Source of the DNA: a virus
IMG/VR virus record: IMGVR_UViG_3300025168_000071
Location: 1-64,000 of that record
DNA length: 64,000 bases
Direction: 5' to 3' (one strand)
How positions within the stretch are numbered: position 1 is the stretch's first letter; every line of letters starts with the position of its first letter. Below the pieces are notes generated by a model. The model was not told the origin of the DNA and ran no database searches. It saw only the letters and a program-made list of their open reading frames with translations. Shown one piece after another: positions 22,789-38,346 of this stretch. A program made the translations under genes and the position numbers.

Positions 22789-23113
22789 TAGTTTTATCCT
22801 CCTCGATATGTAAGATGTTAGCGTTAAGTATCAAAACACCCGCCGGAGCCTCGCCCGATGTGGCGCCGCCGTGCTTCACAACCAAATCCCTCACTACGTT
22901 AGCCGGTACATGCGGATAAACGGTCATTGTGAGCTTCTGAGGGCTTTCTGCGTAGGGATCCAGCAGTGGATCCGGCCAACTCGGATACCCAAGCTCTACC
23001 TCAGTGTAGGGGCCAATATCATCGCGCGGTACGCAGTACTTACTAACGCCCGCTTGGACTGACACACTGTATCCGTCGAAGCATTTTATATGTTCATAGA
23101 GTTTAGACTTCAT
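22775..23113 (-). CDS. Hypothetical protein
   Basis: 112 aa, Pro/Tyr-rich middle (YPSWPDPLLDPYAESP) and a C-terminal strand GVLILNANILHIEED. No known family. ATGA overlap with a GDLV-family gene upstream. Confidence 0.55.
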   Translation of the reverse strand: MKSKLYEHIKCFDGYSVSVQAGVSKYCVPRDDIGPYTEVELGYPSWPDPLLDPYAESPQKLTMTVYPHVPANVVRDLVVKHGGATSGEAPAGVLILNANILHIEEDKTNDEG

Positions 23114-23253
23114 TTATTTATAACCTCCAAATAAGTTTGTGAGAACCATTCAGTTTCATCGCTAAACATGACTTTTACAAGATCCGCAGCGACTTTTATA
23201 ATAAGCCCAAGATCTCCCCGCTCTGTATCTCTAACTAAATCACCCACTTGCAT
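23110..23253 (-). CDS. GDLV-family module 1, cluster A
   Basis: 47 aa: MQVGDLVRDTERGDLGLIIK followed by a KVMFSDETEWF strand and the ending YLEVINK. First (downstream-most) member of a five-gene tandem. Its start is embedded in the last codons of the next module with a 14-nt overlap. Confidence 0.7.
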   Translation of the reverse strand: MQVGDLVRDTERGDLGLIIKVAADLVKVMFSDETEWFSQTYLEVINK

Positions 23254-23419
23254 TGATCACCTTTAGATTTCGTTCACTAACGATCTCAGTTTTACCGTCT
23301 GTCCACAGGATCGACCACCAAGCAGTTTTCCACTTGCCCTTCTCGGCATTTTTAACAACAATACCTACAACGGGGGGAAACATCGTGCGCTTATACATTA
23401 CTAAGTCACCCGCTTGCAC
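23240..23419 (-). CDS. GDLV-family module 2, cluster A
   Basis: 59 aa from a GTG: VQAGDLVMYKRT, VVGIVVKNA, WWSILWTDGK and the end LKVINASG. The GTG lies within the seam GAGGTGATCAGTGCAAG that also encodes EVISAS of the upstream gene and acts as its ribosome binding site. Confidence 0.7.
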   Translation of the reverse strand: MQAGDLVMYKRTMFPPVVGIVVKNAEKGKWKTAWWSILWTDGKTEIVSERNLKVINASG

Positions 23420-23582
23420 TGATCACCTCTACGTCCCATGGGTTAGCCGCTATACGCCGCTGAGAGGCCATAACCAGCACAGTCACATCACACCCAAATA
23501 CATCCTCATCGATCTTCTCAATCAAGCCCATCTTTGTGCCGTAGTGCTTTGTATCCACTTTAACCAAATCACCGACTTGCAT
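23406..23582 (-). CDS. GDLV-family module 3, cluster A
   Basis: 58 aa: MQVGDLVKVDTKHYGTKMGL, DVTVLVMAS, NPWDVEVISASG. The core strand differs from its neighbours while the first ten and last eight residues are nearly the same, as expected if only the interior diverges. Confidence 0.7.
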   Translation of the reverse strand: MQVGDLVKVDTKHYGTKMGLIEKIDEDVFGCDVTVLVMASQRRIAANPWDVEVISASG

Positions 23583-23778
23583 TGATCACCTCTAAGTCTT
23601 CCTCCAGCACGAAACCCAGTTGCCCGCTTCCACTCCAAAGGACGCGCCACCAATGCTCAACCGCACCGTTGCGGTCTGTGAGCGCGTGACTCTCGGTACC
23701 GACAATGACGCCCAGCACACCGGTGACACCCGGCAAGCGCCTAAAGTTATTCCGTCTAACCAAATCACCGACTTGCAT
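23569..23778 (-). CDS. GDLV-family module 4, cluster A
   Basis: 69 aa: MQVGDLVRRNNFRRLPG, GVLGVIVGTES, HWWRVLWSGSGQ, EEDLEVINASR. A typical full member with the GV-IVG turn, a W-R-V-LW strand and the INASR ending whose DNA also holds the next ATG. Confidence 0.75.
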   Translation of the reverse strand: MQVGDLVRRNNFRRLPGVTGVLGVIVGTESHALTDRNGAVEHWWRVLWSGSGQLGFVLEEDLEVINASR

Positions 23779-23941
23779 TGAGCAACCTCAAGTCAACAGG
23801 ATTAGCCCAAATCTTCCGGCTACCGTCATTCGGCTGAATGACGCAGACGCAGTTATAATCGTCACGGGCAACTTCAATAACGATCCCATTCTTGGGATTT
23901 CTATGTGGCATACGCACCCTTACCAAATCACCTACTTTCAT
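23765..23941 (-). CDS. GDLV-family module 5, cluster A
   Basis: 58 aa: MKVGDLVRVRMPHRNPKNGI, a VIEVARDD strand, KIWANPVDLRLLNASR. It is the promoter-proximal module of cluster A, preceded by a small membrane protein whose own C-terminus (NESR) carries the seam. Confidence 0.7.
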   Translation of the reverse strand: MKVGDLVRVRMPHRNPKNGIVIEVARDDYNCVCVIQPNDGSRKIWANPVDLRLLNASR

Positions 23942-24065
23942 TTACAGCCTCGTCATCAATCAAGCTGTTCCAATGCTTCCACGGGAACGCAGCCAACACA
24001 AGGACACCAACCGGCAAGAGCCACATGCCATTGTCTAAAATCATAACTTGCCAATCATTTAGCAT
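23928..24065 (-). CDS. 45-aa membrane protein ending in the module seam
   Basis: MLNDWQVMILDNGMWLLPVG VL then VLAAFPWKHWN, one hydrophobic segment, ending VNESR. It is unrelated to the GDLV fold yet shares the 14-nt seam overlap with the next gene. Start overlaps the SWIM gene by 11 nt. Confidence 0.6.
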   Translation of the reverse strand: MLNDWQVMILDNGMWLLPVGVLVLAAFPWKHWNSLIDDEAVNESR

Positions 24066-24375
24066 ATTGTTTTACCTCTTCGATGTGGCGGCATGCGCGC
24101 CGGAACTGATAGCCCTTGCAAGAGCAGCTTAGGGAGCCGCTGACGGCCTCCACGGTGTAAGCCTGACCCTTGGACCCTTGGACGGTCCAAACGCTGCCTG
24201 ACGGGGCTTGTGGGCCGTCTGATGGCGGGGTCCAAGTCATGTACTTGGGAAGGTCCGCGCGGGTCGTATTCTCAGGCACAGGGATCCACGTGCCGCCACT
24301 GATGGCGTAGGTGCTACTTTGCAGTCTCGCTATAAGGGGGTTCATGCTTACGCGCACAGGTAGTTCTAAGCTCAT
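24055..24375 (-). CDS. SWIM zinc-finger protein
   Basis: 106 aa. The C-terminus contains C84-x-C86-x8-C95-x-H97 (CSCKGYQFRRACRH), the CxCxnCxH SWIM signature. The N-terminal 80 residues are Pro/Trp-rich and unrecognised. SWIM domains bind DNA or proteins. It overlaps the small GTG-start gene upstream by 4 nt. Confidence 0.7.
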   Translation of the reverse strand: MSLELPVRVSMNPLIARLQSSTYAISGGTWIPVPENTTRADLPKYMTWTPPSDGPQAPSGSVWTVQGSKGQAYTVEAVSGSLSCSCKGYQFRRACRHIEEVKQYAK

Positions 24376-24551
24376 ACTTGTGAAGTCCCCGCAGCATTAC
24401 CCAGCTTGTTCGTTAACCCTTCAAGGTTTTCGATCTCGCTTACAATCTCGGTAGCATCGCCAAACATCGCACAATCTTGCAGATCGTCGATTCGGTTACC
24501 AACGCAATCCATCAACTCGATTATTTCGTCCCGTGTTAAATCAATGATCAC
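24372..24551 (-). CDS. Small acidic helical protein, GTG start
   Basis: 59 aa reading VIIDLTRDEIIELMDCVGNR onward, ending GNAAGTSQV. The GTG overlaps the TGA of the upstream gene, and its own TGA overlaps the SWIM gene ATG. Function unknown. Confidence 0.5.
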   Translation of the reverse strand: MIIDLTRDEIIELMDCVGNRIDDLQDCAMFGDATEIVSEIENLEGLTNKLGNAAGTSQV

Positions 24552-24760
24552 GCTTGGGCCGCATCCATGGTGGCCGCAAAGATGGTGGCAAACTTCTCTT
24601 CAAGTTCATCAGTCATTTGCCCCTCGGTGCGTGTCAGTTGCATCTCGGCATAAAGTCCAAGCTGTAGCACGATGGCGTTCGCTGTATTCTCGGCGCGCTC
24701 AAGCGGACCCATGGTTACAGAGTCTTCGGAAGTGGAGGTTGAAAGTTGAATATCGGTCAT
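24548..24760 (-). CDS. Small helical protein
   Basis: 70 aa: a Thr/Ser-rich start (MTDIQLSTSTSEDSV) followed by acidic helices. A copy of AAGGTTTGTTTG lies 33 nt before its ATG. A GC hairpin (24804-24818) lies in the leader but lacks a T tract. Confidence 0.5.
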   Translation of the reverse strand: MTDIQLSTSTSEDSVTMGPLERAENTANAIVLQLGLYAEMQLTRTEGQMTDELEEKFATIFAATMDAAQA

Positions 24761-24826
24761 TTGAATAATCCTTGTTGTGGAACGTAAAGTAAAAGGTTTG
24801 TTTGGGGCCGCGCGCCCCGTTGGAGT

Positions 24827-25240
24827 TTAGGAGGTACGAGCAGCGTGATACTCGCCATCCGCTCCCCGCCAAAAATAGGCCGGGGCGCCATCAGTGGCGG
24901 GGATATTAGTGGAACCCACCGCGCACAAGGCAAACATCGCCGTTCTCTCTTCCACAGACCCGGAAACCCGGATCAAGAAGTTGTCCCAATACTCTCCGAA
25001 AGCGCCGGCGTGCCAGTTGCCGCCGCGCACAGGGGTGCCATCGTCGTTGGTGTAGCCGATGAACTCGACATCCACATAGTGACATGTCTGATGTGCGAAA
25101 GGCTTCTCAACGCGAAGCACACGGGCCTTGGTGCCAACGGGCAAGGCGGTGGGCGTTCCACCATGTCCGTACTTGTTTGCGATGCGCTCGCGGCAAAGGG
25201 TGATGGTGTCGCCGATCTTGATGGTGTGTCCGTAAGTCAT
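24827..25240 (-). CDS. Beta-rich hypothetical protein
   Basis: 137 aa from MTYGHTIKIGDTITLCRERI; an upstream ATG frame would begin upstream of the mapped -10 region. IKIGDTITL, KARVLRVEKP and YVDVEFIGY give a GDLV-like strand order, followed by an extra C-terminal part ending YFWRGADGEYHAARTS. It follows a three-box promoter. Confidence 0.6.
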   Translation of the reverse strand: MTYGHTIKIGDTITLCRERIANKYGHGGTPTALPVGTKARVLRVEKPFAHQTCHYVDVEFIGYTNDDGTPVRGGNWHAGAFGEYWDNFLIRVSGSVEERTAMFALCAVGSTNIPATDGAPAYFWRGADGEYHAARTS

Positions 25241-25283
25241 GAAAAAAGTCCTTGTTTGGGGGTGAAGCTCGATCTTATACCTT

Positions 25284-25337
25284 ATTATACACGTGTCGAA
25301 AGCAAAGGTCAAGCGGATCCTGTCAAGAGAATGTCAA
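25284..25337 (-). promoter_or_regulatory. Three-box TTGAC promoter
   Basis: Minus strand: TTGACA, 11 bp to TTGACA, 14 bp to the -35 TTGACC, 17-bp spacer, TATAAT. The distal box contains the TGA stop of the upstream gene. It should drive the gene ending at 24827 and those beyond. Confidence 0.8.
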
Positions 25338-25564
25338 GGGTTTACAGCCTCCAGCCACATCGGGTGAAACTTGAGGATCGAAGCCCCAAACTGGACATTA
25401 TAGATATTGTTGCCTACAGAGTGGGATGTGGTTTCCAGAACCTCAACCACCAACCCAGTACGGTGAGAGGGGAGCGCAGGGTCATGAGTGCCATCGAGGA
25501 CACGCACAAGATCGCCCACCCTGAACTGGCCGATTACCAGCGGGCTATGTTGTATCGTCTTCAT
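25334..25564 (-). CDS. GDLV-family small protein
   Basis: 76 aa: QFRVGDLVRVLDGTHDP, RTGLVVEVLETTS, YNVQFGASI, WLEAVNP. Full layout of the family with a longer N-terminus. Its stop lies inside a promoter box. Confidence 0.7.
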   Translation of the reverse strand: MKTIQHSPLVIGQFRVGDLVRVLDGTHDPALPSHRTGLVVEVLETTSHSVGNNIYNVQFGASILKFHPMWLEAVNP

Positions 25565-25760
25565 AGCCTGAAAGGTTTGTTTGCGGGGTCAGGAAAGGCT
25601 CCAGAGCGTCCCCAAGTGGTAGAACCATAGGAGACATGTCTAAAGCCGGGAGGGACGCCAGAACGGCGTCCAGAAGCTCGCGCAAGTGTGTGACCTCTTC
25701 ATCAAGTTCAGCTTCTTCTTTGGCGCGCCTAAACTCGGCAAGGTTTATAACATTATCCAT
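25545..25760 (-). CDS. Small acidic helical protein
   Basis: 71 aa from MDNVINLAEFRRAKEEAELD, placed 1 nt after the upstream stop, then a Leu/Pro-rich half. It overlaps the next gene by 20 nt. NLAEFRRAKEE-type N-termini are common in small phage and plasmid proteins. Function unknown. Confidence 0.5.
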   Translation of the reverse strand: MDNVINLAEFRRAKEEAELDEEVTHLRELLDAVLASLPALDMSPMVLPLGDALEPFLTPQTNLSGYEDDTT

Positions 25761-25761
25761 C

Positions 25762-26079
25762 TTAAAAAGGAACCCTTTCACTGAGTGGCGAGTGCGCCCA
25801 AACTTTGGGATTCATGGTCACAACCGAACCGCCCACTGTGGCGCGCTTGGCGAGGTTCACGTGACAAGATGTAGTCTGTGAGTGGTAGCCTTTGGCCCGG
25901 GCAGTGTAGTCCGCAAGGACACACACGCCGGCGGCCGTGCGCTGGCCAATGTGTAGGTCATAGGAGTACAACGCAGACCCATCGGTGTGGAGGGAGCCGC
26001 GACCATTTTTAGCATGCTCTCCGGCCTTCCATGCCTTGATGACTCCAGAGTTATCTGTACGTTTGATTTTGATTTTCAT
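25762..26079 (-). CDS. Hypothetical protein
   Basis: 105 aa from MKIKIKRTDNSGVIKAWKAG; an upstream in-frame start would overlap the metallopeptidase gene. Contains YSYDLHIGQRTAAGVCVLAD and a basic middle. No recognised family. Confidence 0.55.
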   Translation of the reverse strand: MKIKIKRTDNSGVIKAWKAGEHAKNGRGSLHTDGSALYSYDLHIGQRTAAGVCVLADYTARAKGYHSQTTSCHVNLAKRATVGGSVVTMNPKVWAHSPLSERVPF

Positions 26080-26093
26080 AGGTTTATCCTCGT

Positions 26094-27335
26094 TTATACG
26101 TCGATAGCGATTACACGCTCTTGGGTTTGAAAGTATGGGCGATCTGCGTAGGCTTTGGTGGTCATCCACATACGTTGGCATGCGCTGGCGATAGGTTTGG
26201 GGGCCATCATATCGGTCAGGATGATGTGGCCATCAAAGCCGTTGTCATTGACGTAGCGGGTTGGTGCATTAAAACACGTTCCACCACACAGAACCCGCTC
26301 CCATGGGCGCGTCTGGCCGCGCTTCCAGACATAGACCTTATCTTCTCCAACCTCAGAGTCAAAGGGGATCACGGTGAACTCGGCGATGTCGGCCAGTTCG
26401 TTAAGCTCGGCGAAGAACGCGGCAAGCATCGCATCATCCACCGATCCAGACTGATCGATACTAATCGCGATCTTGGCATGACGGCGTACGCGCTTGCCCG
26501 GGTGGATACGTGGGAAACGCCGGTTAATGCGTCGAGGCGTTGACCGACGATCAGCGCGCTGGCTGGTCTTAATGAAGTAACGCATCACCTTGCGCCAGTC
26601 TACGCGCGTCTGGATGCGATCCATGATCTCCTTACGCATCTGCGATGACACAGATCCCCAGTTGCGCGCGCGGCTGGCGTCTTCGGCCGCCTTCTTAATG
26701 GCATCTTTCAATCGTTCCTTGGCAATCTCGCCGGCGGTACCATCGGTGTCACCGAAAGCATCATGGTCATCGAAGGAGTCGGCACCATCGAAGGCATCGC
26801 CACCTTCGCCGCCGGATCCACCTTCACCGTCTTGTTCTTGCTCTTTCTGCATCTTCTTCAGCGCGTTCAAGTACCATTCGTAGGTCATGCCGGTAGGCAG
26901 ATCAGCAAACGGACCTTCTCCGGGGATGCAACCCTTCATAGGCTCACCGGATGGCATCATGGGGCCGGGGTTGGAGTCGCTTGGCAGCTTGCCGGCCATT
27001 TCGGGCAGTCCGTTGATAGCGAGATCCATGGCGATGTTATCAATACGCTTAAGGCCATCAATAGGCTTGCGCCCGGTCACATGCTCAAAAATGATGTGAT
27101 AGAACTCATGCATAAGAACACCCAGCTTATGCTCATCATCCAACGCAGCAAAAAACTCTGGATTGTATAGCAGTTCAAACTGCTCACGTTCAGGGTTGAC
27201 GCGAACGCCAGCGGTAGGGATCGCGGTGGTCGGAGTCTTATCGATCCGGCGTGAGAGCGATGCGAAAAATGGCTCACTCATAAGCAAACGCGCGGTGTGC
27301 ATGTTGAGGTTGAACTTGGGGGCTGTGTCGGTCAT
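26094..27335 (-). CDS. VWA metallopeptidase-like protein, partner of MoxR-type ATPase
   Basis: 413 aa. The N-terminal part has a zinc-peptidase motif HEFYH (H76-E77-H80) in LGVLMHEFYHIIFEH. A Gly/Asp-rich linker (about 165-205) and a basic region follow. The C-terminal half is a VWA-like domain with MIDAS D294-x-S296-G-S298 (IDQSGSVDD). The combination is the DUF2201-type family that in bacteria is encoded beside MoxR AAA ATPases; one lies 1 kb upstream here. I infer a chaperone-like or protein-remodelling pair. The phage role is unknown. Confidence 0.8.
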   Translation of the reverse strand: MTDTAPKFNLNMHTARLLMSEPFFASLSRRIDKTPTTAIPTAGVRVNPEREQFELLYNPEFFAALDDEHKLGVLMHEFYHIIFEHVTGRKPIDGLKRIDNIAMDLAINGLPEMAGKLPSDSNPGPMMPSGEPMKGCIPGEGPFADLPTGMTYEWYLNALKKMQKEQEQDGEGGSGGEGGDAFDGADSFDDHDAFGDTDGTAGEIAKERLKDAIKKAAEDASRARNWGSVSSQMRKEIMDRIQTRVDWRKVMRYFIKTSQRADRRSTPRRINRRFPRIHPGKRVRRHAKIAISIDQSGSVDDAMLAAFFAELNELADIAEFTVIPFDSEVGEDKVYVWKRGQTRPWERVLCGGTCFNAPTRYVNDNGFDGHIILTDMMAPKPIASACQRMWMTTKAYADRPYFQTQERVIAIDV

Positions 27336-27361
27336 GTTGGAAACTCCGTGCTTACTCTGTA

Positions 27362-27415
27362 AGTATACACGCGGGGGAAGAAAAGGTCAAGTTGATTGTG
27401 TCAAAGAAGTGTCAA
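27362..27415 (-). promoter_or_regulatory. Three-box TTGAC promoter
   Basis: TTGACA, 11 bp, TTGACA, 14 bp, -35 TTGACC, 17 bp, TATACT on the minus strand, upstream of the VWA gene. The distal box holds the TGA of the upstream gene. Confidence 0.8.
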
Positions 27416-27714
27416 GCGTTGCTTGCTTCTTTCTCGGCCGCTTCTTTCTCAAGCTCGGCAAGGTCAGCCGCAACATCAGCCATGGTCATTGCGCGCGTCT
27501 TGGTGCGCTTGGTCTGCTCACGGTCCAGCTTGCCCCAGCGGCGTGAACCTGCCGGATGCTCGCACATGTGCAGATCGGGGATGCCAAGGGCGCGCATGCG
27601 TCGAAGCATCTCGCGGGTAGGCTTGGCAGCGTCGGGCTTAGTAAGCACAGTTTCATAGCCGACCGGCTTGCCAGAGTCGAGGGAAACGTGAGTGCGAGAA
27701 ACGTAAAACTTCAT
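27412..27714 (-). CDS. Hypothetical basic/helical protein
   Basis: 100 aa: KFYVSRTHVSLDSGKPVGYE then KPTREMLRRMRALGIPDLHM, ending in a long Ala/Glu helix (ADLAELEKEAAEKEASNA). No motif recognised. It is a single-gene unit flanked by three-box promoters on both sides. Confidence 0.55.
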   Translation of the reverse strand: MKFYVSRTHVSLDSGKPVGYETVLTKPDAAKPTREMLRRMRALGIPDLHMCEHPAGSRRWGKLDREQTKRTKTRAMTMADVAADLAELEKEAAEKEASNA

Positions 27715-27743
27715 AGATATATCTCCTTACTTGATATGCTACC

Positions 27744-27798
27744 ATTATACCAGAAGAGTGGGGTGAAGTCAACAACAAAGTTGTCAAGTGAATGTCAG
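27744..27798 (-). promoter_or_regulatory. Three-box TTGAC promoter
   Basis: CTGACA, 11 bp, TTGACA, 15 bp, -35 TTGACT, 17 bp, TATAAT on the minus strand. Nearly identical over 50 bp to the promoters at 32.46 and 33.19 kb. Confidence 0.85.
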
Positions 27799-27890
27799 AG
27801 GTCACAGGTTTTCTTGCAAGCCCTGTGTGGCTCTGTGCTGGCGCGCGTAACCGGGGAAGGGTAAGGACACTCTGAGCGCGCTGGGGGCGC

Positions 27891-28112
27891 TTAGAAGGCG
27901 TCTGAGGCGTCTGGGCGCTGGTATTCGGCGGCAATCTGAAGGTCATGCTTCCAGACCTGTTGGCCGGCCTCCAGCAAGCGGAATAGCATGCGCGGGATAC
28001 CGGGATCTCCATATGGCGTTCGGCGCGATGGGCGCTCTCCGGTGACAAGCGCGGTGGTGCCTGTGGAGACGCGGACCAGAAGATCACCGACTACTATGGC
28101 TTGCTTGTTCAT
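27891..28112 (-). CDS. GDLL-type small protein
   Basis: 73 aa from MNKQAIVVGDLLVRVSTGTT, followed by a LFRLLEAGQQVW strand. The start overlaps the upstream gene's last codon. A GDLV-family relative. Confidence 0.55.
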   Translation of the reverse strand: MNKQAIVVGDLLVRVSTGTTALVTGERPSRRTPYGDPGIPRMLFRLLEAGQQVWKHDLQIAAEYQRPDASDAF

Positions 28113-28327
28113 TTTATTACCCTCATCAGACAATCGGCATGGAACTCCATTTCTACCCCGCTCTTTAGCCACCTAACCACGTATCGAGGCTTAAAGCCAC
28201 CAATACGCCCCGTCACTTCCACCACCATACCCGGGCCATTTTTCTTGGTGAAGGGGGCATCGGCCGCACCACGCGCGAGGCGGTTAGTCAGATAGACTAA
28301 CTCGCCAAGGTGGTATAGGTTCGACAT
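28109..28327 (-). CDS. GDLV-family relative
   Basis: 72 aa: YHLGELVYLTNRLARG, GMVVEVTGR, RYVVRWLKSGVEME, DCLMRVIK. GELV replaces GDLV but the other landmarks are kept. It starts 1 nt after the MoxR-like gene stop. Confidence 0.6.
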   Translation of the reverse strand: MSNLYHLGELVYLTNRLARGAADAPFTKKNGPGMVVEVTGRIGGFKPRYVVRWLKSGVEMEFHADCLMRVIK

Positions 28328-28328
28328 G

Positions 28329-29405: not shown

Positions 29406-29451
29406 GTGATAATCTCCGAAAGGGGAAAAGGTTTTTTGTTCTTACTGTATA

Positions 29452-29506
29452 AATATAGCACCGAAAGTGCTTTAGGTCAAGGTTTTTCTTGTCAAGTGAA
29501 TGTCAA
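29452..29506 (-). promoter_or_regulatory. Three-box TTGAC promoter
   Basis: TTGACA, 11 bp, TTGACA, 15 bp, -35 TTGACC, 17 bp, TATATT (minus strand), upstream of the MoxR-like gene. Confidence 0.8.
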
Positions 29507-29515
29507 GAGGTGAAA

Positions 29516-29740: not shown

Positions 29741-29767
29741 GGTGGTTTCTCCTTATTTGGTATAACC

Positions 29768-29822
29768 ATTATCTCATAGGCGAGAAGAAAAAGCAAGGGT
29801 TTTGTTGTCAGGGAAATGTCAA
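29768..29822 (-). promoter_or_regulatory. Three-box promoter, degenerate -35
   Basis: TTGACA, 11 bp, CTGACA, 15 bp, TTGCTT, 17 bp, GATAAT on the minus strand. The geometry is kept although the -35 is weak, which suggests that the two upstream boxes are functional. Confidence 0.7.
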
Positions 29823-32135: not shown

Positions 32136-32175
32136 GTTTTGATCTCCAAGGATGGGGGTTTTTTCTTACCTCTAT

Positions 32176-32230
32176 AATATAGCACCGTGGGGCATAGAAG
32201 TCAACCCCAATCCTGTCAAGAGAATGTCAG
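32176..32230 (-). promoter_or_regulatory. Three-box TTGAC promoter
   Basis: CTGACA, 11 bp, TTGACA, 15 bp, -35 TTGACT, 17 bp, TATATT (minus strand), with the upstream TGA in the distal box. Shares the GGTGCTATATTAT -10 region with several others. Confidence 0.8.
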
Positions 32231-32430
32231 TACTTGTATGCCGGCGCGCCAAGCTCGGCGCCGGCGTCAAGGTGAGCGTTTTCAAGATCGATCATGTGAT
32301 CAACTATCTTCTGATAAGCCGCGCGGTCCCCATTGCTCAAAGCTGTGTCAGCCTGAGTGTTGAGCGTTGCGAGTCGGTCGTTCAGTCGGGCGAAGTCGGC
32401 GTTCAGCCGGGTGAAGTCTTCATAGGTCAT
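32227..32430 (-). CDS. Small coiled-coil protein
   Basis: 67 aa: TYEDFTRLNADFARLNDRLA and following heptads, ending ELGAPAYKY. Likely a helical dimer. Function unknown. Monocistronic between two three-box promoters. Confidence 0.55.
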   Translation of the reverse strand: MTYEDFTRLNADFARLNDRLATLNTQADTALSNGDRAAYQKIVDHMIDLENAHLDAGAELGAPAYKY

Positions 32431-32456
32431 GGTGGATCTCCTTACTTGGTATAACC

Positions 32457-32511
32457 ATTATACCAGAAGAGTGGGGCGAAGTCAATAACAATGTTGTCAA
32501 GAGAATGTCAG
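32457..32511 (-). promoter_or_regulatory. Three-box TTGAC promoter
   Basis: CTGACA, 11 bp, TTGACA, 15 bp, -35 TTGACT, 17 bp, TATAAT on the minus strand. The distal box contains the stop of the gene ending at 32508. Confidence 0.85.
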
Positions 32512-33005
32512 GACACCAAGGCAAGATCGCGTACTGGGTAGTGGTTGGCGCGCTGGTATCGTGCGTTCTTACCTACCCACTTGACTGATACATAATCACT
32601 GCCGGCGACACCGGAAGTGGTACCCGTCACCATGCCAACCAAACCCGCATAGCCTTGACGGTTAGCACGCTTGTTATCCTTGCCTCTCACCAGTTGGCCG
32701 GCCTTAAACTTTGATGGCTTCGGAAGGATCGATTCGACCATCTGAGTCGCGTTGTCACGGAATGAGCCAGCGAAATAGTCAGACTGAGAATCAGAGTGAT
32801 CATCGCAACGGCGAACGTGGAAGTTGCACGCATCAGCTTCAAGTTGATGCTCCCAACCGGCTGACATCGCTCCGTTAGCCAAGAACGAGCCAACATAATC
32901 GTTATGCTCAAAGTGCCAGCGCGTTCCGTTATATTCTACATCAATATCAATGCCCTGCTTCTTAAAGTGAGTTTTGATTTTCTTGATTACTGCTTTTACT
33001 TTCAT
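32508..33005 (-). CDS. Two-domain protein with a GDLV-type C-terminal half
   Basis: 165 aa from MKVKAVIKKIKTHFKKQGID; the first ~95 residues are an alpha/beta domain with conserved His/Asp (CDDHSDSQSDYFAG). The second half, FKAGQLVRGKDNKRANRQGY then GLVGMVTGTTS, YVSVKWVG and VRDLALVS, has the strand order of the GDLV family. This fusion shows the small domain can be an appendage. Confidence 0.6.
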   Translation of the reverse strand: MKVKAVIKKIKTHFKKQGIDIDVEYNGTRWHFEHNDYVGSFLANGAMSAGWEHQLEADACNFHVRRCDDHSDSQSDYFAGSFRDNATQMVESILPKPSKFKAGQLVRGKDNKRANRQGYAGLVGMVTGTTSGVAGSDYVSVKWVGKNARYQRANHYPVRDLALVS

Positions 33006-33166
33006 GCTACCACCTCCATATCTTCGCACTTGACCCAGCCTGTTGACCGGTTGTGTGGCCAAAAGATTTGTGCAAGCTCTCCAACCATCTTCATCACAAG
33101 ACCCATGCGGGCCGTGTGGTTTTCCATTCTGAACTTACTCTTAACAACGCTTCCGACTTCAATCAT
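33002..33166 (-). CDS. GDLV-family relative
   Basis: 54 aa: MIEVGSVVKSKFRMENHTAR, MGLVMKMVGEL, CEDMEVVA. VGSVV in place of VGDLV. ATGA overlap with the two-domain gene; preceded by the near-consensus three-box promoter. Confidence 0.6.
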   Translation of the reverse strand: MIEVGSVVKSKFRMENHTARMGLVMKMVGELAQIFWPHNRSTGWVKCEDMEVVA

Positions 33167-33193
33167 AGATTTCTCTCCTTACTTGGTATGACC

Positions 33194-33248
33194 ATTATAC
33201 CAAAAAAACGAGGGCAAGTCAACAACAAAGTTGTCAAGTAGATGTCAA
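33194..33248 (-). promoter_or_regulatory. Three-box TTGAC promoter
   Basis: TTGACA, 11 bp, TTGACA, 15 bp, -35 TTGACT, 17 bp, TATAAT. Upstream TGA lies in the distal box. Confidence 0.85.
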
Positions 33249-33526
33249 GCCTCTTTAAGGCTATTCCAGTAGGAATCTACAAACTGCTTGCACTCCTTTA
33301 GTCCTGAGAACGTAGGGCTAACCCCTTTGCGTTCGCAGTTGGTCATGTGGTCCTCGCACACACGGCCGTATTCACGCACGAACTTGATGAGTGGAATCTT
33401 TGCAAATACCGCTTTCTTAGAGGGGTATTGAGATTTGCTGTGTTTAGCAACTAATATGCGGGCAATCGTCAGAGCGTCATCCAATCCTTGCGGATCGTCT
33501 GTGTCCAGCACCAGAGTCATCTTCAT
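33245..33526 (-). CDS. Hypothetical protein, DTDDP start
   Basis: 93 aa: KMTLVLDTDDPQGLDDALTI then ARILVAKHSK and a Cys-containing C-terminal half. The LxLDTDDPxxLxDALxIA start occurs in several phage proteins I have seen described only as hypothetical. Function unknown. Confidence 0.6.
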   Translation of the reverse strand: MKMTLVLDTDDPQGLDDALTIARILVAKHSKSQYPSKKAVFAKIPLIKFVREYGRVCEDHMTNCERKGVSPTFSGLKECKQFVDSYWNSLKEA

Positions 33527-33702
33527 TTTATTACCTTCAGAGCCGTGTGGATGTGTAAGGTTTGGCTACCGGGTTGGTTGTCACTTTCAGGGCCTTTGTG
33601 AAGCCTGACCCACGTATCGCTTTCGACCTCTACCACCAGAAAAATCCCCTTCTCGCTCTCGCGATAAGGTCGTGCGAACTGAACCAGATCACCGACTTTC
33701 AC
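33523..33702 (-). CDS. GDLV-family module, cluster B
   Basis: 59 aa from GTG: VKVGDLVQFARPYRESEKGI, FLVVEVES, VRLHKGPE, LKVIK. ATGA overlap with the DTDDP gene and a 14-nt seam overlap with the next module. Confidence 0.7.
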   Translation of the reverse strand: MKVGDLVQFARPYRESEKGIFLVVEVESDTWVRLHKGPESDNQPGSQTLHIHTALKVIK

Positions 33703-33859
33703 TCAGCACCTCACAATGGTGCGCCGGGAATCCTGTTCTAACATACTGGGTTTTCAGAAATAACAAATCTACAAACGCTTCACTCGCGATTGTAATAGAT
33801 GTGGTTAACACAATCGCAACATTACCCTTTCGGGTTCTCACAATGTCACCTACCTGCAT
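33689..33859 (-). CDS. GDIV-family module, cluster B
   Basis: 56 aa: MQVGDIVRTRKGNVAIVLTT, a hydrophobic strand FVDLLFLKT, HHCEVLSESR. Ends in the SESR seam that encodes the next GTG start. Confidence 0.7.
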   Translation of the reverse strand: MQVGDIVRTRKGNVAIVLTTSITIASEAFVDLLFLKTQYVRTGFPAHHCEVLSESR

Positions 33860-34004
33860 TGACCACCTCCAAGTCCGTCATAAGAAGCCACATCCCGCAG
33901 CCGAGTATTTTAACCCAGTTTATTCGTGACTCCACAACAAGATGCGCGCCATGAACATTGATCAGATCAGGAAAGTTTGCTTTTACCAGATCACCGACTT
34001 GCAC
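33846..34004 (-). CDS. GDLV-family module, cluster B
   Basis: 52 aa from GTG: VQVGDLVKANFPDLINVHGA, HLVVESRINWVKIL, LEVVNAGR. Seam overlap of 14 nt at both ends. Confidence 0.7.
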   Translation of the reverse strand: MQVGDLVKANFPDLINVHGAHLVVESRINWVKILGCGMWLLMTDLEVVNAGR

Positions 34005-34188
34005 TGATCACCTCCAGATCGTAGTCAGCATGGGATACCGGCGCTTCTCCGTTCGCCCATAGGACAAGCCAATGTGAACCCCACTGCCAAGTCGAGCCTT
34101 GTCTGACAACAATACCCACTGGACCCAGCGATGGTGGCGGGAAAAGTCCAGAGCCTATCGACTGTTTTACTAAATCACCGACTTGCAT
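33991..34188 (-). CDS. GDLV-family module, cluster B
   Basis: 65 aa: MQVGDLVKQSIGSG, GPVGIVVRQGS, HWLVLWANGEAP, DYDLEVISASR. A full-length typical member. Its HWLVLW strand matches HWWRVLW of cluster A module 4. Confidence 0.75.
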   Translation of the reverse strand: MQVGDLVKQSIGSGLFPPPSLGPVGIVVRQGSTWQWGSHWLVLWANGEAPVSHADYDLEVISASR

Positions 34189-34381
34189 TTACTAACTCCA
34201 TTTGTCTGGTTCTGATCGGAAAGCTATCTTCATAGCCGGGGATCATCACATAGAATATATCCGGTCGCGACCCAAAGGCCACCGCGTCCAAGGGGTTGTG
34301 TGCTGGGTTGAACCTCCCCACAACCAGACCCACGGGCTTATTGTCTATCGTCATACATCTAACCAAATCACCTACTTGCAT
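34175..34381 (-). CDS. GDLV-family module, cluster B, promoter-proximal
   Basis: 68 aa from MQVGDLVRCMTIDN; an upstream ATG exists but lies between the -10 and this start. PVGLVVGRFNP, FYVMIPGYE and MELVNASR complete the pattern. It directly follows a three-box promoter. Confidence 0.7.
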   Translation of the reverse strand: MQVGDLVRCMTIDNKPVGLVVGRFNPAHNPLDAVAFGSRPDIFYVMIPGYEDSFPIRTRQMELVNASR

Positions 34382-34397
34382 TTTCTTCTCCTTACCC

Positions 34398-34538
34398 CTA
34401 TAATATAGCACCGGAGAGGCGAGTTGTCAAGGGGGGATTTGTCAAAGGCATGTCAACAATGAGGCGGGGCGTCGTGGGATCAAACACAGAGCCGGTACCG
34501 GGCTGGCTAAGGGCCACTAAGAGTGCGAGAAGCTTCAT
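34398..34538 (-). CDS. 46-aa exported peptide candidate overlapping a promoter
   Basis: Starts directly after the TAA of the upstream gene; GAGGA lies 10 nt before. MKLLALLVALSQPGTGSVFD resembles a signal peptide. The rest is encoded by the three-box promoter itself and stops inside its -10. Real translation is uncertain. Confidence 0.35.
   Translation of the reverse strand: MKLLALLVALSQPGTGSVFDPTTPRLIVDMPLTNPPLTTRLSGAIL
34402..34456 (-). promoter_or_regulatory. Three-box TTGAC promoter
   Basis: TTGACA, 11 bp, TTGACA, 15 bp, -35 TTGACA, 17 bp, TATATT on the minus strand; drives cluster B. Confidence 0.8.
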
Positions 34539-34901
34539 TTAGTCATCATCCTCAACTGCCGATGTAGCAGTGCCGGACATCATTCGCTTGTTCATTTCCT
34601 GACGCCGGATAGCTGCCAGCGATCCAGTACGGATCTGAAACTCTCCAAATGCTTCAGCGCCGGTATTAAACAACTCCTTCTCTTCGACCACGAAGGTGTG
34701 GCCGGTCAAGTCTCGGCTCCAATCGTCGTGGTGGCCACTGGCTTCGGCCAGCAGGTCATCATGTAGCTCGTTAAACTCGCTGATTTGATCGAGCTGCAAT
34801 GCGCCGGCGGCTGGAGAGCGCATTAAGGTAGCGGCGTGGGTGTCGAGCGCGAGCATGATCATTTCAAGCTCGCGCGGTGTCAGGGTGATAGTGCGGTCCA
34901 T
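34539..34901 (-). CDS. Helical acidic protein
   Basis: 120 aa: MDRTITLTPRELEMIMLALD onward, helical N-terminal half, then FVVEEKELFNTGAEAFGEF and a C-terminal VEDDD. No known motif. Confidence 0.55.
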   Translation of the reverse strand: MDRTITLTPRELEMIMLALDTHAATLMRSPAAGALQLDQISEFNELHDDLLAEASGHHDDWSRDLTGHTFVVEEKELFNTGAEAFGEFQIRTGSLAAIRRQEMNKRMMSGTATSAVEDDD

Positions 34902-34928
34902 TGGGTTCCTTTTTCAAAGTGTGTACCC

Positions 34929-34982
34929 ATTATCGCATAGGTAGCGCCTAAAGTCAAGTGACAAATGTCAAGGGAACGTCAA
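34929..34982 (-). promoter_or_regulatory. Three-box TTGAC promoter
   Basis: TTGACG, 11 bp, TTGACA, 14 bp, -35 TTGACT, 17 bp, GATAAT on the minus strand. Confidence 0.75.
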
Positions 34983-34987
34983 AGCCT

Positions 34988-35233
34988 CTAAGGCGGGGTA
35001 CGTGGTGGATCGGGGGCGGCTGATAACACCTCAAATCGATCCAGCGAGAAATGCGAACCTCGGACTTTGCTGCCATCGTATGACACCGGCTTAAGCCATG
35101 TGATTGCCACATGCTCAGACTGATCTATAGCACGCTTGGTGTAGTTTGTCACATAACCGACTGCACCAATAAACATCGGATAGCGATCATTGGCAATACC
35201 CACATATTTTAGGATTGCTCCCAGCATTTTCAT
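34988..35233 (-). CDS. Small beta-rich protein
   Basis: 81 aa: MKMLGAILKYVGIANDRYPM, GAVGYVTNY, VAITWLKPVS, LDRFEVLSAAP. No GDLV, but the G-x-V...V-x-W...FEVLS landmarks fit the family. ATGA overlap with the next gene. Confidence 0.55.
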   Translation of the reverse strand: MKMLGAILKYVGIANDRYPMFIGAVGYVTNYTKRAIDQSEHVAITWLKPVSYDGSKVRGSHFSLDRFEVLSAAPDPPRTPP

Positions 35234-35568
35234 CCTTGCACCTGTGTTACATTATAATCAAGGAAGAAGTTGCGGTCACTCATTCGGTGGTAACCCAGTT
35301 CTTGCCATTCGTTAAAGATTATCCATAGCTGTTCGCTTTCAAGGGCGCCCATTTTATCCAAATCCCATTCGGGAGCTTCTGTCTGTTCACCGTCTGTTTC
35401 CCGGTAGGGGTTACAATCGTTCGCGAACTTCACTGCATCTTTTGTACTGTTAACCTGTAGAAAATCCAGCACTTCAGCTATAGCCATTAAGGCGCAACCT
35501 TTTTGCGTGAAGTGAACGGTACTAAACAGTTCATTTTCATAGCTACCATGTAAAACCCAAACTTTCAT
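35230..35568 (-). CDS. Hypothetical protein
   Basis: 112 aa: VWVLHGSYENELFSTVHFTQ then acidic helical body with LWIIFNEWQELGYHRMSDR. Function unknown. Confidence 0.55.
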   Translation of the reverse strand: MKVWVLHGSYENELFSTVHFTQKGCALMAIAEVLDFLQVNSTKDAVKFANDCNPYRETDGEQTEAPEWDLDKMGALESEQLWIIFNEWQELGYHRMSDRNFFLDYNVTQVQG

Positions 35569-35912
35569 TCCGCGCCCGCTCTTTTTGCTTTACTTTCCTC
35601 AAGCATATTGTTCACCCATGCGCCATTAAACTCGGCAGCGTATTGATCGCGCAACACAAGCAGGGTTTCACCGTCCTTAGTTTCATTCCGCAGCTTGTAG
35701 CCGGGAATCAAGAACTCGGTACCGGTCGGGGCGCCTATGAAGACCTCACAAATCGCGTAGGGTACGGACTTTGAGCCATGGCGTGTCTCACCAGTCTTCT
35801 TATCCTTCCAGCTACGCCGGAACCGGCGAAACTGCATGTCAACCACGCGGGCCTGAATCATGCCCGTGGTGGCGGGGATTACTACGATGTCGTTTTTCTT
35901 GAGATATGCCAT
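35565..35912 (-). CDS. Small beta-barrel-like protein
   Basis: 115 aa: LKKNDIVVIPATTGMIQARV then basic loop (RRFRRSWKDKKTG) and strand YAICEVFIG. A NDIV start and VxxMxF strand relate it to the GDLV fold; the C-terminal helix is extra. Confidence 0.55.
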   Translation of the reverse strand: MAYLKKNDIVVIPATTGMIQARVVDMQFRRFRRSWKDKKTGETRHGSKSVPYAICEVFIGAPTGTEFLIPGYKLRNETKDGETLLVLRDQYAAEFNGAWVNNMLEESKAKRAGAE

Positions 35913-35939
35913 TTGTGGCTCCTTTTACTTTACCCTTAT

Positions 35940-35994
35940 AGTATAGCACCGATGAGCGGTGAAGTCAAGAGTTTGCCTGTCAAGAGAATGTCAA
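35940..35994 (-). promoter_or_regulatory. Three-box TTGAC promoter
   Basis: TTGACA, 11 bp, TTGACA, 15 bp, -35 TTGACT, 17 bp, TATACT. The TGA of the gene ending at 35991 is in the distal box. Confidence 0.85.
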
Positions 35995-36218
35995 GAGGCG
36001 CTAATCACTTTTATTTCGGATAGGCCCGCTGCCCAACCAATCACGATTTCTTGACCGCAATAAAGCGCGACGAATAGCGCATCATTGGGCGGATCGTATT
36101 GTTCCAATACTAACATTGGACCGATCCAGCCTTCATCGTTGGGCGGTGGCACAATCACCCGACCATCGCCATCGCGTGTCCATCCATCACGGTGCATGAC
36201 AATATCGCCGATTTTCAT
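35991..36218 (-). CDS. GDIV-family small protein
   Basis: 75 aa from the ATG 6 nt after AGGAGAG: MKIGDIVMHRDGWTRDG, IGPMLVLEQYD, LFVALYCG, EIKVISAS. Typical end of the family. Confidence 0.65.
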   Translation of the reverse strand: MKIGDIVMHRDGWTRDGDGRVIVPPPNDEGWIGPMLVLEQYDPPNDALFVALYCGQEIVIGWAAGLSEIKVISAS

Positions 36219-36229
36219 TATCAACTCTC

Positions 36230-36622
36230 CTAATACGCCGCACTACGCTCAATGTGGATGTCAAAGCCCCAGCCGGCCACCTCATTGTCATCCATTTCTT
36301 CACCAATGCGAACGAAGCGGAAAAACTCTGAGGCAGCTTCAACTTCGTCCTCTCCATTTTCCTTCTTTTTTCCTGTGGGGATGGTTTCCTCATCACACCA
36401 CATGATAAAGTCTTGAATGGCGGATACTCCCTCGCAAGAGTCGTACCACTTGATCTGATCCCAACGGAACAGAAACGCGCCTTTAATGTCGTAGTAGTCC
36501 TTGACCATTTCGCTGTCTCTCCAGCACATTTCTCGCGCTTCGGGCGACTTTGCCATTGTGACCATAAACTGAGGCATAACCTCTGGACCGACTGCCAATA
36601 TAACTTCTGAACGATAACCCAT
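36230..36622 (-). CDS. Hypothetical GYRSEV protein
   Basis: 130 aa starting MGYRSEVILAVGPEVMPQFM, a start seen in other phage hypothetical proteins. The C-terminal part (FFRFVRIGEE, VAGWGFDIHIERSAAY) is beta-rich. Function unknown. Confidence 0.65.
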   Translation of the reverse strand: MGYRSEVILAVGPEVMPQFMVTMAKSPEAREMCWRDSEMVKDYYDIKGAFLFRWDQIKWYDSCEGVSAIQDFIMWCDEETIPTGKKKENGEDEVEAASEFFRFVRIGEEMDDNEVAGWGFDIHIERSAAY

Positions 36623-36652
36623 TGTTGCTCTCCTTTCTTGAACTTCCCCTAT

Positions 36653-36707
36653 ATTATAGCCCCTGCGTACGCAAAAGTCAAGAGAACTCTTGTCAAGTAA
36701 ATGTCAG
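36653..36707 (-). promoter_or_regulatory. Three-box TTGAC promoter
   Basis: CTGACA, 11 bp, TTGACA, 15 bp, -35 TTGACT, 17 bp, TATAAT. Here the upstream TGA lies in the middle box. Confidence 0.85.
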
Positions 36708-36890
36708 GCCGGCTTCGCTGAGAACTTCGATCTCATCCTTCTGGGGGGAGAGAACATGTACGGCGGCGCGCTCAATGCACCACATCTGCCAAACCGCAAG
36801 GGGGCCGCTATCGGGTGTCTCCATAATAAATCCGTGATACCACTGATCATCAGGCTCATAGCGCACACGAATAAGATCACCAAGGTTCAT
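36693..36890 (-). CDS. GDLI-family module, cluster C
   Basis: 65 aa: MNLGDLIRVRYEPDDQWYHG, FIMETPDS, MWCIERAAV, EIEVLSEAG. 4-nt overlap with the next module rather than 14. Confidence 0.65.
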   Translation of the reverse strand: MNLGDLIRVRYEPDDQWYHGFIMETPDSGPLAVWQMWCIERAAVHVLSPQKDEIEVLSEAGLTFT

Positions 36891-37117
36891 TTGATCGAGG
36901 GCGGGCCAATAACCTTGACATACCCTTGTGCTATATCGAACTCATCAAGGCGCGTTTGGCCACAATCAAACGACACGTGCCACCCATTGCGGGAAGCTGG
37001 GCCGGCAACCAGCCCAATGCGATTGGATTGGCCGTGACAAAAGAAACATTCACAATCAAAGTCTGACCAGCCTGAAGTTCCGCATGCGCGCACTTGGATT
37101 AGATCACCTACTTTCAC
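36887..37117 (-). CDS. GDLI-family module with Cys cluster, cluster C
   Basis: 76 aa from GTG: VKVGDLIQVRACGTSGWSDF, DCECFFCHGQ, IGLVAGPAS, VKVIGPP. Three Cys within DCECFFC may bind metal, unusual in the family. Confidence 0.65.
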   Translation of the reverse strand: MKVGDLIQVRACGTSGWSDFDCECFFCHGQSNRIGLVAGPASRNGWHVSFDCGQTRLDEFDIAQGYVKVIGPPSIK

Positions 37118-37361
37118 TGATCACTTCCAAAGAGTTGGCAGCAAAGTTCTGGCTCACTTTTCCACATGACCACACAACATCAACCAAGATGCCGCCGAGC
37201 CACTTTGTCCACTGACTATAGCCTCCACCGTCGCCGTCGCCGGCACGAACTGGCGTGTGTACTGCTATAATGGTGCCGACCGAACGCATGCGTTTGGGAT
37301 CCTCTGTATGGCGGATCTTAAGAACGCGGTTACTTTGTATCACCAGATCACCGACTTTCAC
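37104..37361 (-). CDS. GDLV-family module, cluster C
   Basis: 85 aa from GTG: VKVGDLVIQSNRVLKIRH, SVGTIIAVHT, ILVDVVWSCG, NSLEVISESR. The seam starting codon of the next downstream gene lies in ISESR. Confidence 0.7.
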   Translation of the reverse strand: MKVGDLVIQSNRVLKIRHTEDPKRMRSVGTIIAVHTPVRAGDGDGGGYSQWTKWLGGILVDVVWSCGKVSQNFAANSLEVISESR

Positions 37362-37453
37362 AGCATGCCCCGTAGTGCATAGACAAGGCATGCAGTGGCG
37401 GCGATTATACCCCCAACGCTAATCAATATCGTCATTTGTTCATCTGCTTTCAC
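37358..37453 (-). CDS. 31-aa membrane micro-peptide using the seam
   Basis: VKADEQMTILISVGGIIAAT then ACLVYALRGML, one hydrophobic segment. The GTG sits in the EVISESR seam of the upstream module (14-nt overlap); an internal ATG (37435) would give 25 aa. Coupled to the next gene by ATGA-type overlap. Confidence 0.5.
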   Translation of the reverse strand: MKADEQMTILISVGGIIAATACLVYALRGML

Positions 37454-37628
37454 TTATTACCTCCAGCCATGGTTCAGGTTCCCAGTCCACTTTGCCTGAA
37501 CCACCTATCCATATTATGCCTATTTGCGGCTTTCTTGCGGAAATAGCTTTAGGATGCCGACCCACAACAATACCGACATGGGTGCCGGTACCCATCCTCA
37601 CCAGATCACCTTTTTTAATGCGCGCCAT
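37440..37628 (-). CDS. GDLV-family module, cluster C
   Basis: 62 aa: MARIKKGDLVRMGTGTHVG, IVVGRHPKA, IGIIWIGGSGK, WLEVISESR. 14-nt overlaps on both sides. Confidence 0.7.
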   Translation of the reverse strand: MARIKKGDLVRMGTGTHVGIVVGRHPKAISARKPQIGIIWIGGSGKVDWEPEPWLEVISESR

Positions 37629-37809
37629 TTATCACCTTGATATACCCAATCGGATACCACTGTTCTTGTCCGTGTTTCAAGATTTTAACTAACCCCAAGC
37701 CGTTTGGGTGGTTCTCACTCCTATTGACCTCCAGCACAATGCTGATAAATCCTTCGCCGGTACGGGGGCGGGCGTTGCATGCCACCGTGACCAAATCACC
37801 GACTTCCAC
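37615..37809 (-). CDS. GDLV-family module, cluster C
   Basis: 64 aa from GTG: VEVGDLVTVACNARPRTG, FISIVLEVNRS, LVKILKHGQEQW, IKVINGAH. Start lies in the EVIGGSR seam of the upstream membrane protein. Confidence 0.7.
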   Translation of the reverse strand: MEVGDLVTVACNARPRTGEGFISIVLEVNRSENHPNGLGLVKILKHGQEQWYPIGYIKVINGAH

Positions 37810-37948
37810 CGATCACCTCCATCACTTCGCTGCGCCATTGGCGATCCATCTGGCTGCGCGTACGCGCGACACCAATACCAAGACCGGTCACAAGACCGGC
37901 CGCCCAGCATGCTGCCATCCACATCAGGGGTTCAAAAAGTTCAATCAT
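37796..37948 (-). CDS. 50-aa membrane protein ending in the module seam
   Basis: MIELFEPLMWMAACWAAGLV then TGLGIGVARTRS, ending EVMEVIGGSR. One hydrophobic segment and a family-like C-terminus although the rest is unrelated, showing that non-family genes can be inserted in the array. Confidence 0.6.
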   Translation of the reverse strand: MIELFEPLMWMAACWAAGLVTGLGIGVARTRSQMDRQWRSEVMEVIGGSR

Positions 37949-37968
37949 TTTTTCTCCTTTATACCTAT

Positions 37969-38023
37969 AATATAACACCAAAACGGGTAGAAGTCAAGGT
38001 TTAAGTTGTCAAGAGGTTGTCAA
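37969..38023 (-). promoter_or_regulatory. Three-box TTGAC promoter
   Basis: TTGACA, 11 bp, TTGACA, 15 bp, -35 TTGACT, 17 bp, TATATT (minus strand); drives most of cluster C. Confidence 0.8.
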
Positions 38024-38201
38024 TGAGTTTAAGGTGTTCGCTTTTCTGCGTAACCGCTTCGGGGCTGCCAGTCCACAAAACTTTAACGTCAGTGTTACCG
38101 GTCCATTTGCCTGTTTCGACAACCAGACCCACATCCATCGCAACATCGTGAACGCGCTGAAAGTAATACGTCACCAGATCACCGGCTTTAATGCGATTCA
38201 C
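38001..38201 (-). CDS. GDLV-family module, cluster C
   Basis: 66 aa from GTG: VNRIKAGDLVTYYFQRVHDV, VGLVVETGKW, VKVLWTGSPE, LKLIDNLLTT. The gene runs into the distal boxes of the promoter at 37969. Confidence 0.65.
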   Translation of the reverse strand: MNRIKAGDLVTYYFQRVHDVAMDVGLVVETGKWTGNTDVKVLWTGSPEAVTQKSEHLKLIDNLLTT

Positions 38202-38346
38202 TGATCACCTCTACCGTGTGGAACAGCTTGTGATCCAGATGGCACACCCGCGCGCCCTCAAAGGCAATCTGGGCGCCCTGATTCGTGACGCCAATAACTA
38301 TTCCCGTTCCATAGGTTTCATCATAAACCAAATCACCGACTCGCAT
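38188..38346 (-). CDS. GDLV-family module, cluster C
   Basis: 52 aa: MRVGDLVYDETYGTGIVIGV, AQIAFEGARV, VEVISESH. 14-nt seam overlap with the downstream module. Confidence 0.7.
   Translation of the reverse strand: MRVGDLVYDETYGTGIVIGVTNQGAQIAFEGARVCHLDHKLFHTVEVISESH

Follow-up and report, generated by a model that had tools for sequence, protein, structure and literature searches.

The window analysed here is the whole stretch of 64,000 nucleotides (nt) at positions 1 to 64,000 of the IMG/VR virus record IMGVR_UViG_3300025168_000071, making up most of that 68.8-kb record. It carries on its minus strand three rows (arrays) of small genes, at 22.8-24.4, 33.2-34.4 and 36.7-38.3 kb, most of which belong to one protein family and are joined by a 14-nt overlap, referred to below as the seam. 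An earlier inspection of the letters alone (the sequence-only reading) had listed 14 such junctions, and all 14 proved to be exact 14-nt overlaps between consecutive minus-strand open reading frames. The three arrays contain the following features, with lengths of peptides in amino acids (aa):

23110-23253, minus: family gene, last module of array 1 (MQVGDLV...LEVINK), no SESR tail, 4-nt overlap with the next gene, 22775-23113
23240-23253, minus: 14-nt seam joining 23240-23419 and 23110-23253
23240-23419, minus: family gene
23406-23419, minus: 14-nt seam
23406-23582, minus: family gene
23569-23582, minus: 14-nt seam, GAGGTGATCAATGCAAGTCGGTGA
23569-23778, minus: family gene
23765-23778, minus: 14-nt seam
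23765-23941, minus: family gene, core 84% like one module of loci L138/L110
23928-23941, minus: 14-nt seam joining the membrane-like peptide 23928-24065 and family gene 23765-23941
23928-24065, minus: unrelated membrane-like 45-aa peptide, its AVNESR end running through the seam
33523-33702, minus: family gene, last of array 2, LKVIK end, 4-nt overlap with 33245-33526
33689-33702, minus: 14-nt seam
33689-33859, minus: family gene
33846-33859, minus: 14-nt seam
33846-34004, minus: family gene
33991-34004, minus: 14-nt seam, GAGGTGATCAGTGCAAGTCGGTGA
33991-34188, minus: family gene with predicted structure (SH3/KOW-like barrel, five strands, predicted local distance difference test (pLDDT) 87)
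34175-34188, minus: 14-nt seam
34175-34381, minus: family gene, first of array 2 (start 34381)
34402-34430, minus: promoter-like TTGACA-17-TATATT, repeated intergenic cassette upstream of array 2
36693-36890, minus: family gene, 4-nt overlap joint
36887-37117, minus: family gene
37104-37117, minus: 14-nt seam
37104-37361, minus: family gene (GTG start 37361)
37358-37453, minus: membrane-like 31-aa peptide VKADEQMTILISVGG..., start at seam, end with 4-nt overlap
37440-37453, minus: 14-nt seam, GTGAAAGCAGATGA
37440-37628, minus: family gene, variant start MARIKKGDLV
37615-37628, minus: 14-nt overlap of different sequence, ATGGCGCGCATTAA, TAA stop
37615-37809, minus: family gene, core 80-82% like modules of loci L002, L011/L013 and L125
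37796-37809, minus: 14-nt seam
37796-37948, minus: membrane-like 50-aa peptide, its EVIGGSR end running through the seam (start most likely 37948)
37969-37997, minus: promoter-like TTGACT-17-TATATT, repeated intergenic cassette
38001-38201, minus: family gene, variant start VNRIKAGDLV
38188-38201, minus: 14-nt overlap of different sequence, GTGAATCGCATTAA, TAA stop
38188-38346, minus: family gene, first of array 3
38371-38399, minus: promoter-like TTGCAA-17-TATAGT, repeated intergenic cassette

In this list the start of the gene ending at 34175 has been moved from 34411 to 34381, and that of the gene ending at 37104 from 37391 to the GTG at 37361, where it overlaps the upstream 31-aa peptide by 4 nt.

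The seam had been called invariant, which is accurate for its length and phase, whereas its sequence is a consensus only: the 25-mer originally proposed has no exact copy in the record and five copies at up to three mismatches. Written in degenerate form (GAGGTNATNARTGNANGTNGGNGA) and allowing up to three mismatches, it occurs 12 times in the window, always on the minus strand, against 0.14 copies expected from shuffling. The consensus reads TTG GAG GTG ATC AGT GAA AGT CGG TGA (LEVISESR-stop) in the upstream frame and GTG AAA GTC GGT GAT TTG GTA (VKVGDLV) in the downstream frame. Its GAG GTG ATC segment provides both the last strand (EVI) of the upstream protein and a Shine-Dalgarno sequence, GAGGTGATC matching the complement of the 3' end of 16S ribosomal RNA. 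The proposal that one stretch serves as EVISESR-stop, ribosome-binding site and VKVGD start is correct for the consensus but not for two of the 14 seams, at 37615-37628 and 38188-38201, which carry RIK-type starts (MARIKKGD and VNRIKAGD, respectively), another sequence and a TAA stop, and yet retain the 14-nt geometry.

A family profile was built from 14 members in the window, and family starts were set by this profile independently of any overlap. The search of an initial 120 viral loci together with the window yielded approximately 1,200 members, and that of the final set of 200 loci and the window 2,162, a count that includes duplicates because some of the loci overlap. In loci chosen by the seam, the 14-nt overlap was present in 552 of 832 pairs of neighbouring family genes and in 18 of 887 other neighbours; since such loci are biased towards the seam, 80 relatives were fetched through the neighbouring MoxR gene, and in these the overlap was found in 378 of 587 family pairs (64%) as opposed to 3 of 933 others (0.3%). 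The 14-nt overlap is thus far above both chance and the general habit of gene overlap.

That the overlap is constrained in two frames can be seen from codon usage. The glutamate of EVI is encoded by GAG at 569 of 583 seams (98%), against a GAG:GAA ratio of 833:1017 elsewhere in the same genes and 137:98 in family genes having the same motif without an overlap, an excess at a synonymous position that we attribute to the Shine-Dalgarno constraint. An exact match of at least six bases to TAAGGAGGTGATCC precedes 59% of seam starts and 20% of other close junctions. With the start lying inside the upstream gene and a Shine-Dalgarno sequence near the stop, the arrangement is that expected of translational coupling, and termination-reinitiation across the seam is suggested by these features. 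As to the suspicion that conserved protein ends reflect the seam rather than the protein, it was justified for the GAG codon and for the tail (S/N)(E/A)SR, which is frequent where a seam follows and mostly lost where none follows, but only in part for VGDLV and EVI, which are also core strands of the fold and are retained by seamless members. A separate observation concerns the valine codon of KVGD (seam position +8, all loci), which is almost never GTT (5 of 586, compared with 1282 of 4106 elsewhere); GTT at this position would place a terminal tryptophan on the upstream protein.

The start (A/G)TGAAAGTCGGTGA hides one TGA in each of the other frames (+1 and +11) and therefore gives rise to 4-nt and 14-nt overlaps, which probably explains how the seam arose. 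It could accordingly be argued that the overlap is an unselected by-product of the (M/V)KVGD codons, copied along with the genes by tandem duplication. Where no upstream gene overlaps a family gene, the first stop out of frame would indeed give 4 nt in 58% of cases in phase 1, and in phase 2 14 nt in 43%. Family pairs, however, favour 14 over 4 nt by 552:86, a preference not seen where a non-family gene runs into a family start (51:56); the almost uniform GAG codon and the extended anti-Shine-Dalgarno match constitute additional constraint at the nucleotide level; and RIK-type starts keep 14 nt by means of another stop. This explanation also leaves exchange at the seams unaccounted for, and we consider it unlikely.

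Exchange itself was observed in pairs of closely related contigs, as the sequence-only reading had anticipated in stating that modules could be added, deleted or swapped at seams: in clean indels the joints lie inside the seam, which points to homologous recombination. Loci L011 and L013 share 99% identity over 11 kb and are told apart by a single module, and the crossover falls within an identical 20-mer, ATGAAAGTCGGTGATTTGGT; the short form joins the left flank of the module start to the right flank of the module end, turning a 4-nt junction into a 14-nt one. A four-module difference between L061 and L077 switches within ATGAAA|GTCGGTGA of the seam, homology between L095 and L035 reaches the seam and is followed by unrelated modules, and L118 and L119 have unrelated cores at one position between conserved neighbours. 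Over all pairs, ten independent array indels or relocations were identified, each with its joint between -9 and +26 of a family start and with a shared sequence of 12-35 nt in nine cases and 2 nt in one. An apparent 13-module deletion (L012 and L192 compared with L075) turned out on inspection to be a relocated module. A deletion length in multiples of three was considered as the rule preserving the frame and was rejected, indel lengths being mostly 1 mod 3, as 14-nt overlaps predict; both frames are restored because every joint sits at the same position of the seam.

Genes from outside the family also take part, with 56 distinct ones found upstream and 59 distinct ones downstream of 14-nt seams. 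The sequence-only reading had pointed to unrelated membrane peptides as modules, and unrelated genes do join; membrane-like sequences, though, account for only 6 of the 56 upstream partners and none of the 59 downstream ones, and membrane peptides were rejected as the main cargo.

Given that all loci are metagenomic and that seams are near-identical repeats of 20-35 nt, the indels and swaps might be assembly chimeras formed at short repeats. Against this, in two of the indel events one state was found in two separate contigs (L124 versus L129 and L125; L188 versus L190 and L119), swaps occur between genomes that are 80-90% identical and have diverged cores, the repeats are shorter than typical reads, and the change of neighbours is general over scores of contigs, making chimerism a very improbable source of the pattern.

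Breaks of homology concentrate at the seams. Among 152 such breaks in arrays, those located in the seam number 47 of 62 on the downstream side and 61 of 90 on the upstream side, where a uniform null would give approximately 20%, and breaks are about five times as frequent in arrays (0.359 per kb) as outside them (0.073 per kb). Counted by junction, 70 of 232 seams and 13 of 115 non-family junctions carry a break (odds ratio 3.4, p = 9e-5), and when the comparison is restricted to at least 92% identity the numbers are 26 of 183 and 3 of 92 (p = 0.006).

Module order tells a similar story, since a stable order with vertical divergence was not what relatives displayed: at 75-95% MoxR identity, shared neighbouring modules were still adjacent in 41 of 153 cases, the pairs in these counts not being independent. 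Family modules also disappear more rapidly than other genes: at 80-85% MoxR identity, 6% of family modules are shared, compared with 20% of other genes. For almost every module of the window, the relatives stand beside other neighbours; the module 37615, for example, has relatives at 80-82% in L002, L011/L013 and L125, with different neighbours in each, and for the module 23765 the DNA match to L138/L110 (23754-23942, 87%) ends at both seams, the downstream neighbour being different.

Besides this dependence between pairs, several findings weigh against a special role of the seam in exchange. Seams are not significantly different from 4-nt family junctions (70 of 232 and 5 of 27 with a break, p = 0.26), which carry the same start repeat; breaks outside arrays also prefer gene edges (65 of 139 within 30 nt, 24 inside genes), so that the pattern is partly due to broken genes being removed by selection; the nearby promoter cassettes of about 80 nt are recombination joints too, meaning that the seam is not the sole joint; and all sequences are metagenome assemblies, the case resting on sequence comparison. 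Some of these findings would be expected if illegitimate recombination created joints anywhere and selection retained those at boundaries, the seam then doing no more than mark gene ends and being preserved for translation alone: 115 of the 139 breaks outside arrays do lie at gene boundaries and gaps, and 4-nt family junctions recombine as well. Nine of the ten array events, on the other hand, share 12-35 nt, beyond the few bases expected from illegitimate joining, the conversion of a 4-nt into a 14-nt junction in L011/L013 fits a crossing inside the repeat, and a seam is about three times as likely to carry a break as any other gene boundary. We therefore regard illegitimate joining as quite unlikely to be the main process.

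Our preferred interpretation, which we consider probable, is that the seam acts both as a translational coupler and as a homologous-recombination joint for the exchange of modules. The comparison shows a fixed geometry, a Shine-Dalgarno constraint inside the upstream gene, and the gain, loss and swapping of modules with joints in the seam; homologous recombination would be the pathway by which modules move. In the proposed mechanism, the last strand (E-V-I) of one protein is encoded together with the ribosome-binding site of the next gene, whose start carries the upstream stop out of frame, so that each gene reaches 14 nt into the following one and translation may be passed on. With the same 25-35 nt or so at both ends of a module, homologous recombination could take place between copies, within a phage or between co-infecting phages, and would add, remove or swap whole modules, both frames being rebuilt at any module length. 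The cargo is a fast-changing set of small, predicted SH3/KOW-like barrels with occasional unrelated genes.

With regard to the proteins, the median family length is 63 aa, and diversity is high, 964 of 1,818 size-selected members staying separate at 60% core identity. For the member 33991-34188, AlphaFold2 predicts a barrel of five strands (pLDDT 87), the first of which follows on from the start motif and the last of which contains EVI, with the SR tail outside. Its best fold matches are SH3-like PetP, Spt4/5 KOW and YorP (PDB, template modelling (TM) score 0.64-0.70) and many unnamed phage proteins, the Foldseek probability being 1.00 and the best E-value 0.02 in PDB and 5e-4 in viral models; family members are thus predicted to be SH3/KOW-like barrels of five strands. 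Pfam and PHROG scans of ten window members gave nothing above the cut-off, no member passing the curated Pfam cut-off in this first scan, and a profile scan of 119 members returned weak Spt5 KOW matches, the best (E = 6.5e-4, KOWx_SPT5) for one member. The most likely role of the barrels, which we put forward tentatively and at somewhat less than an even chance, would be that of accessory host-interaction proteins expressed in short operons behind sigma-70-like promoters.

The carriers are contigs of uncultured T4-type phages, mostly of marine type. Whole contigs (136-293 kb) hold 6-32 family members each, with their seams on one strand, and the T4-type Gp23 capsid gene was present in 20 of 20 whole-contig relatives; it was not seen in the window record, which may be a fragment. 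No convincing relative was obtained from 50,697 phage records by tblastn/blastn with family members and one array, and no report of EVISESR or of such arrays was found in the literature. A cellular origin was considered and rejected: the 11 matching genome contigs all come from metagenome-assembled genomes (MAGs), and at least one (101,404 bp) has the same size as an IMG/VR phage contig, for which reason they were taken as binned phage DNA. Seam-bearing contigs (L205, L060, L201-L211) occur in MAGs labelled Halobacteriovorax, Deltaproteobacteria, Flavobacteriales and others, and are likely to be binned phage DNA. It can be speculated that small-protein cassettes form a common pool for T4-like marine phages across the ocean, and that the seam is kept for making modules freely interchangeable, as a frame-safe recombination adaptor selected for evolvability, but we regard this as doubtful.

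Some neighbouring elements recur as well. Intergenic cassettes of approximately 80 nt are repeated on the minus strand (for example 33168-33253, 37944-38030, 34382-34465, 36623-36706, 38347-38432 and 27715-27800), each combining three TTGAC motifs with one TATA(A/T)T-like element; many minus-strand gene groups lie behind them, the same cassette is present in relatives, and some indel joints fall in intergenic repeats of this kind. The cassettes would fit short operons that are transcribed by a polymerase of the sigma-70 type. A conserved protein of about 110 aa (QA...Y..PR...VEVG(Y/F)P...VYGYVP) is often encoded at the end of an array or next to one (window 22775-23113; L011 8842-9186; L017, L059, L072, L104), and a SWIM-like zinc-finger protein (C-S/T-C...C..H) recurs beside arrays (window 24055-24375; L027, L110, L124, L127, L129), its C-terminal end in relatives running through the same seam. 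Elsewhere in the window, at 7063-15778 on the minus strand, several proteins with no relation to each other (predicted phosphatase, kinase, exonuclease, Nudix-like and others) start with a common leader such as MKLLLENWRxYLNE, which may serve capsid targeting or packaging in T4-like phages.

These arrays bear on an old question, namely whether short conserved boundary sequences or illegitimate joining give rise to phage mosaicism. In the arrays the boundary is explicit, has hundreds of copies and was captured in pairs of near-identical genomes, so that direct measurements can be made of how fast modules are exchanged, over what length of homology and with which products. Many small "hypothetical" proteins share their ends and not their middles because end conservation partly belongs to the DNA joint, and conservation of this origin can mislead homology searches. 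The geometry of the seam also shows how small genes are stacked in nature while conflicts between reading frames are avoided.

Among known systems, general translational coupling involves overlapping start and stop codons with a Shine-Dalgarno sequence, of which NTGA overlaps of 4 nt are the common form (PMC12548453), whereas here a fixed and longer 14-nt overlap dominates one gene family. SH3-like barrels (KOW of Spt5/NusG, PetP, YorP, DUF2158) resemble the family in predicted fold, with weak E-values in comparisons of sequence. The Start-Associated Sequences (SAS) of Cluster K mycobacteriophages, a 13-bp repeat (GGGATAGGAGCCC) located 3-7 bp upstream of genes in 11-19 copies per genome, are likewise short repeats at many gene starts with a Shine-Dalgarno core and have been suggested as targets of homologous recombination, although SAS genes are mostly preceded by gaps of more than 50 bp and no module indels at SAS were shown (PMC3203893). 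The seam differs from SAS in both sequence and overlap geometry and is not one of them. Integron gene cassettes are similar in being interchangeable small genes in tandem at a repeated site, but the joint described here is coding, and neither a palindromic attC-like site nor an integrase was noticed, no dedicated search having been made.

The links of lambda ninR are short start/stop overlaps between mostly unrelated genes. This region, quoted as a "chain of interlinked genes" (Kroger and Hobom 1982, cited in PMC7166090), resembles the arrays in being an operon in which successive small accessory genes interlock at their ends. The arrays differ from it in the 14-nt length of the overlap, the Shine-Dalgarno sequence inside the upstream gene and the paralogous SH3-like family. 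The boundary-sequence (linker) model of lambdoid phages, of which the arrays represent a large variant, reportedly goes back to Susskind and Botstein. In that model, short conserved sequences at module boundaries were proposed as sites of homologous recombination between which the genes may be unrelated, though in phage mosaicism such sequences are usually not found (PMC3029335). In the arrays a conserved boundary sequence is present in 64% of family pairs, joints lie inside it and unrelated genes are joined through it; unlike in the model, the seam is coding, serves two reading frames, has hundreds of copies in tandem and connects mostly paralogous small genes. What is distinct here is a coding seam that occurs many times per genome and across genomes, is used in two frames and contains the joints that separate near-identical pairs.

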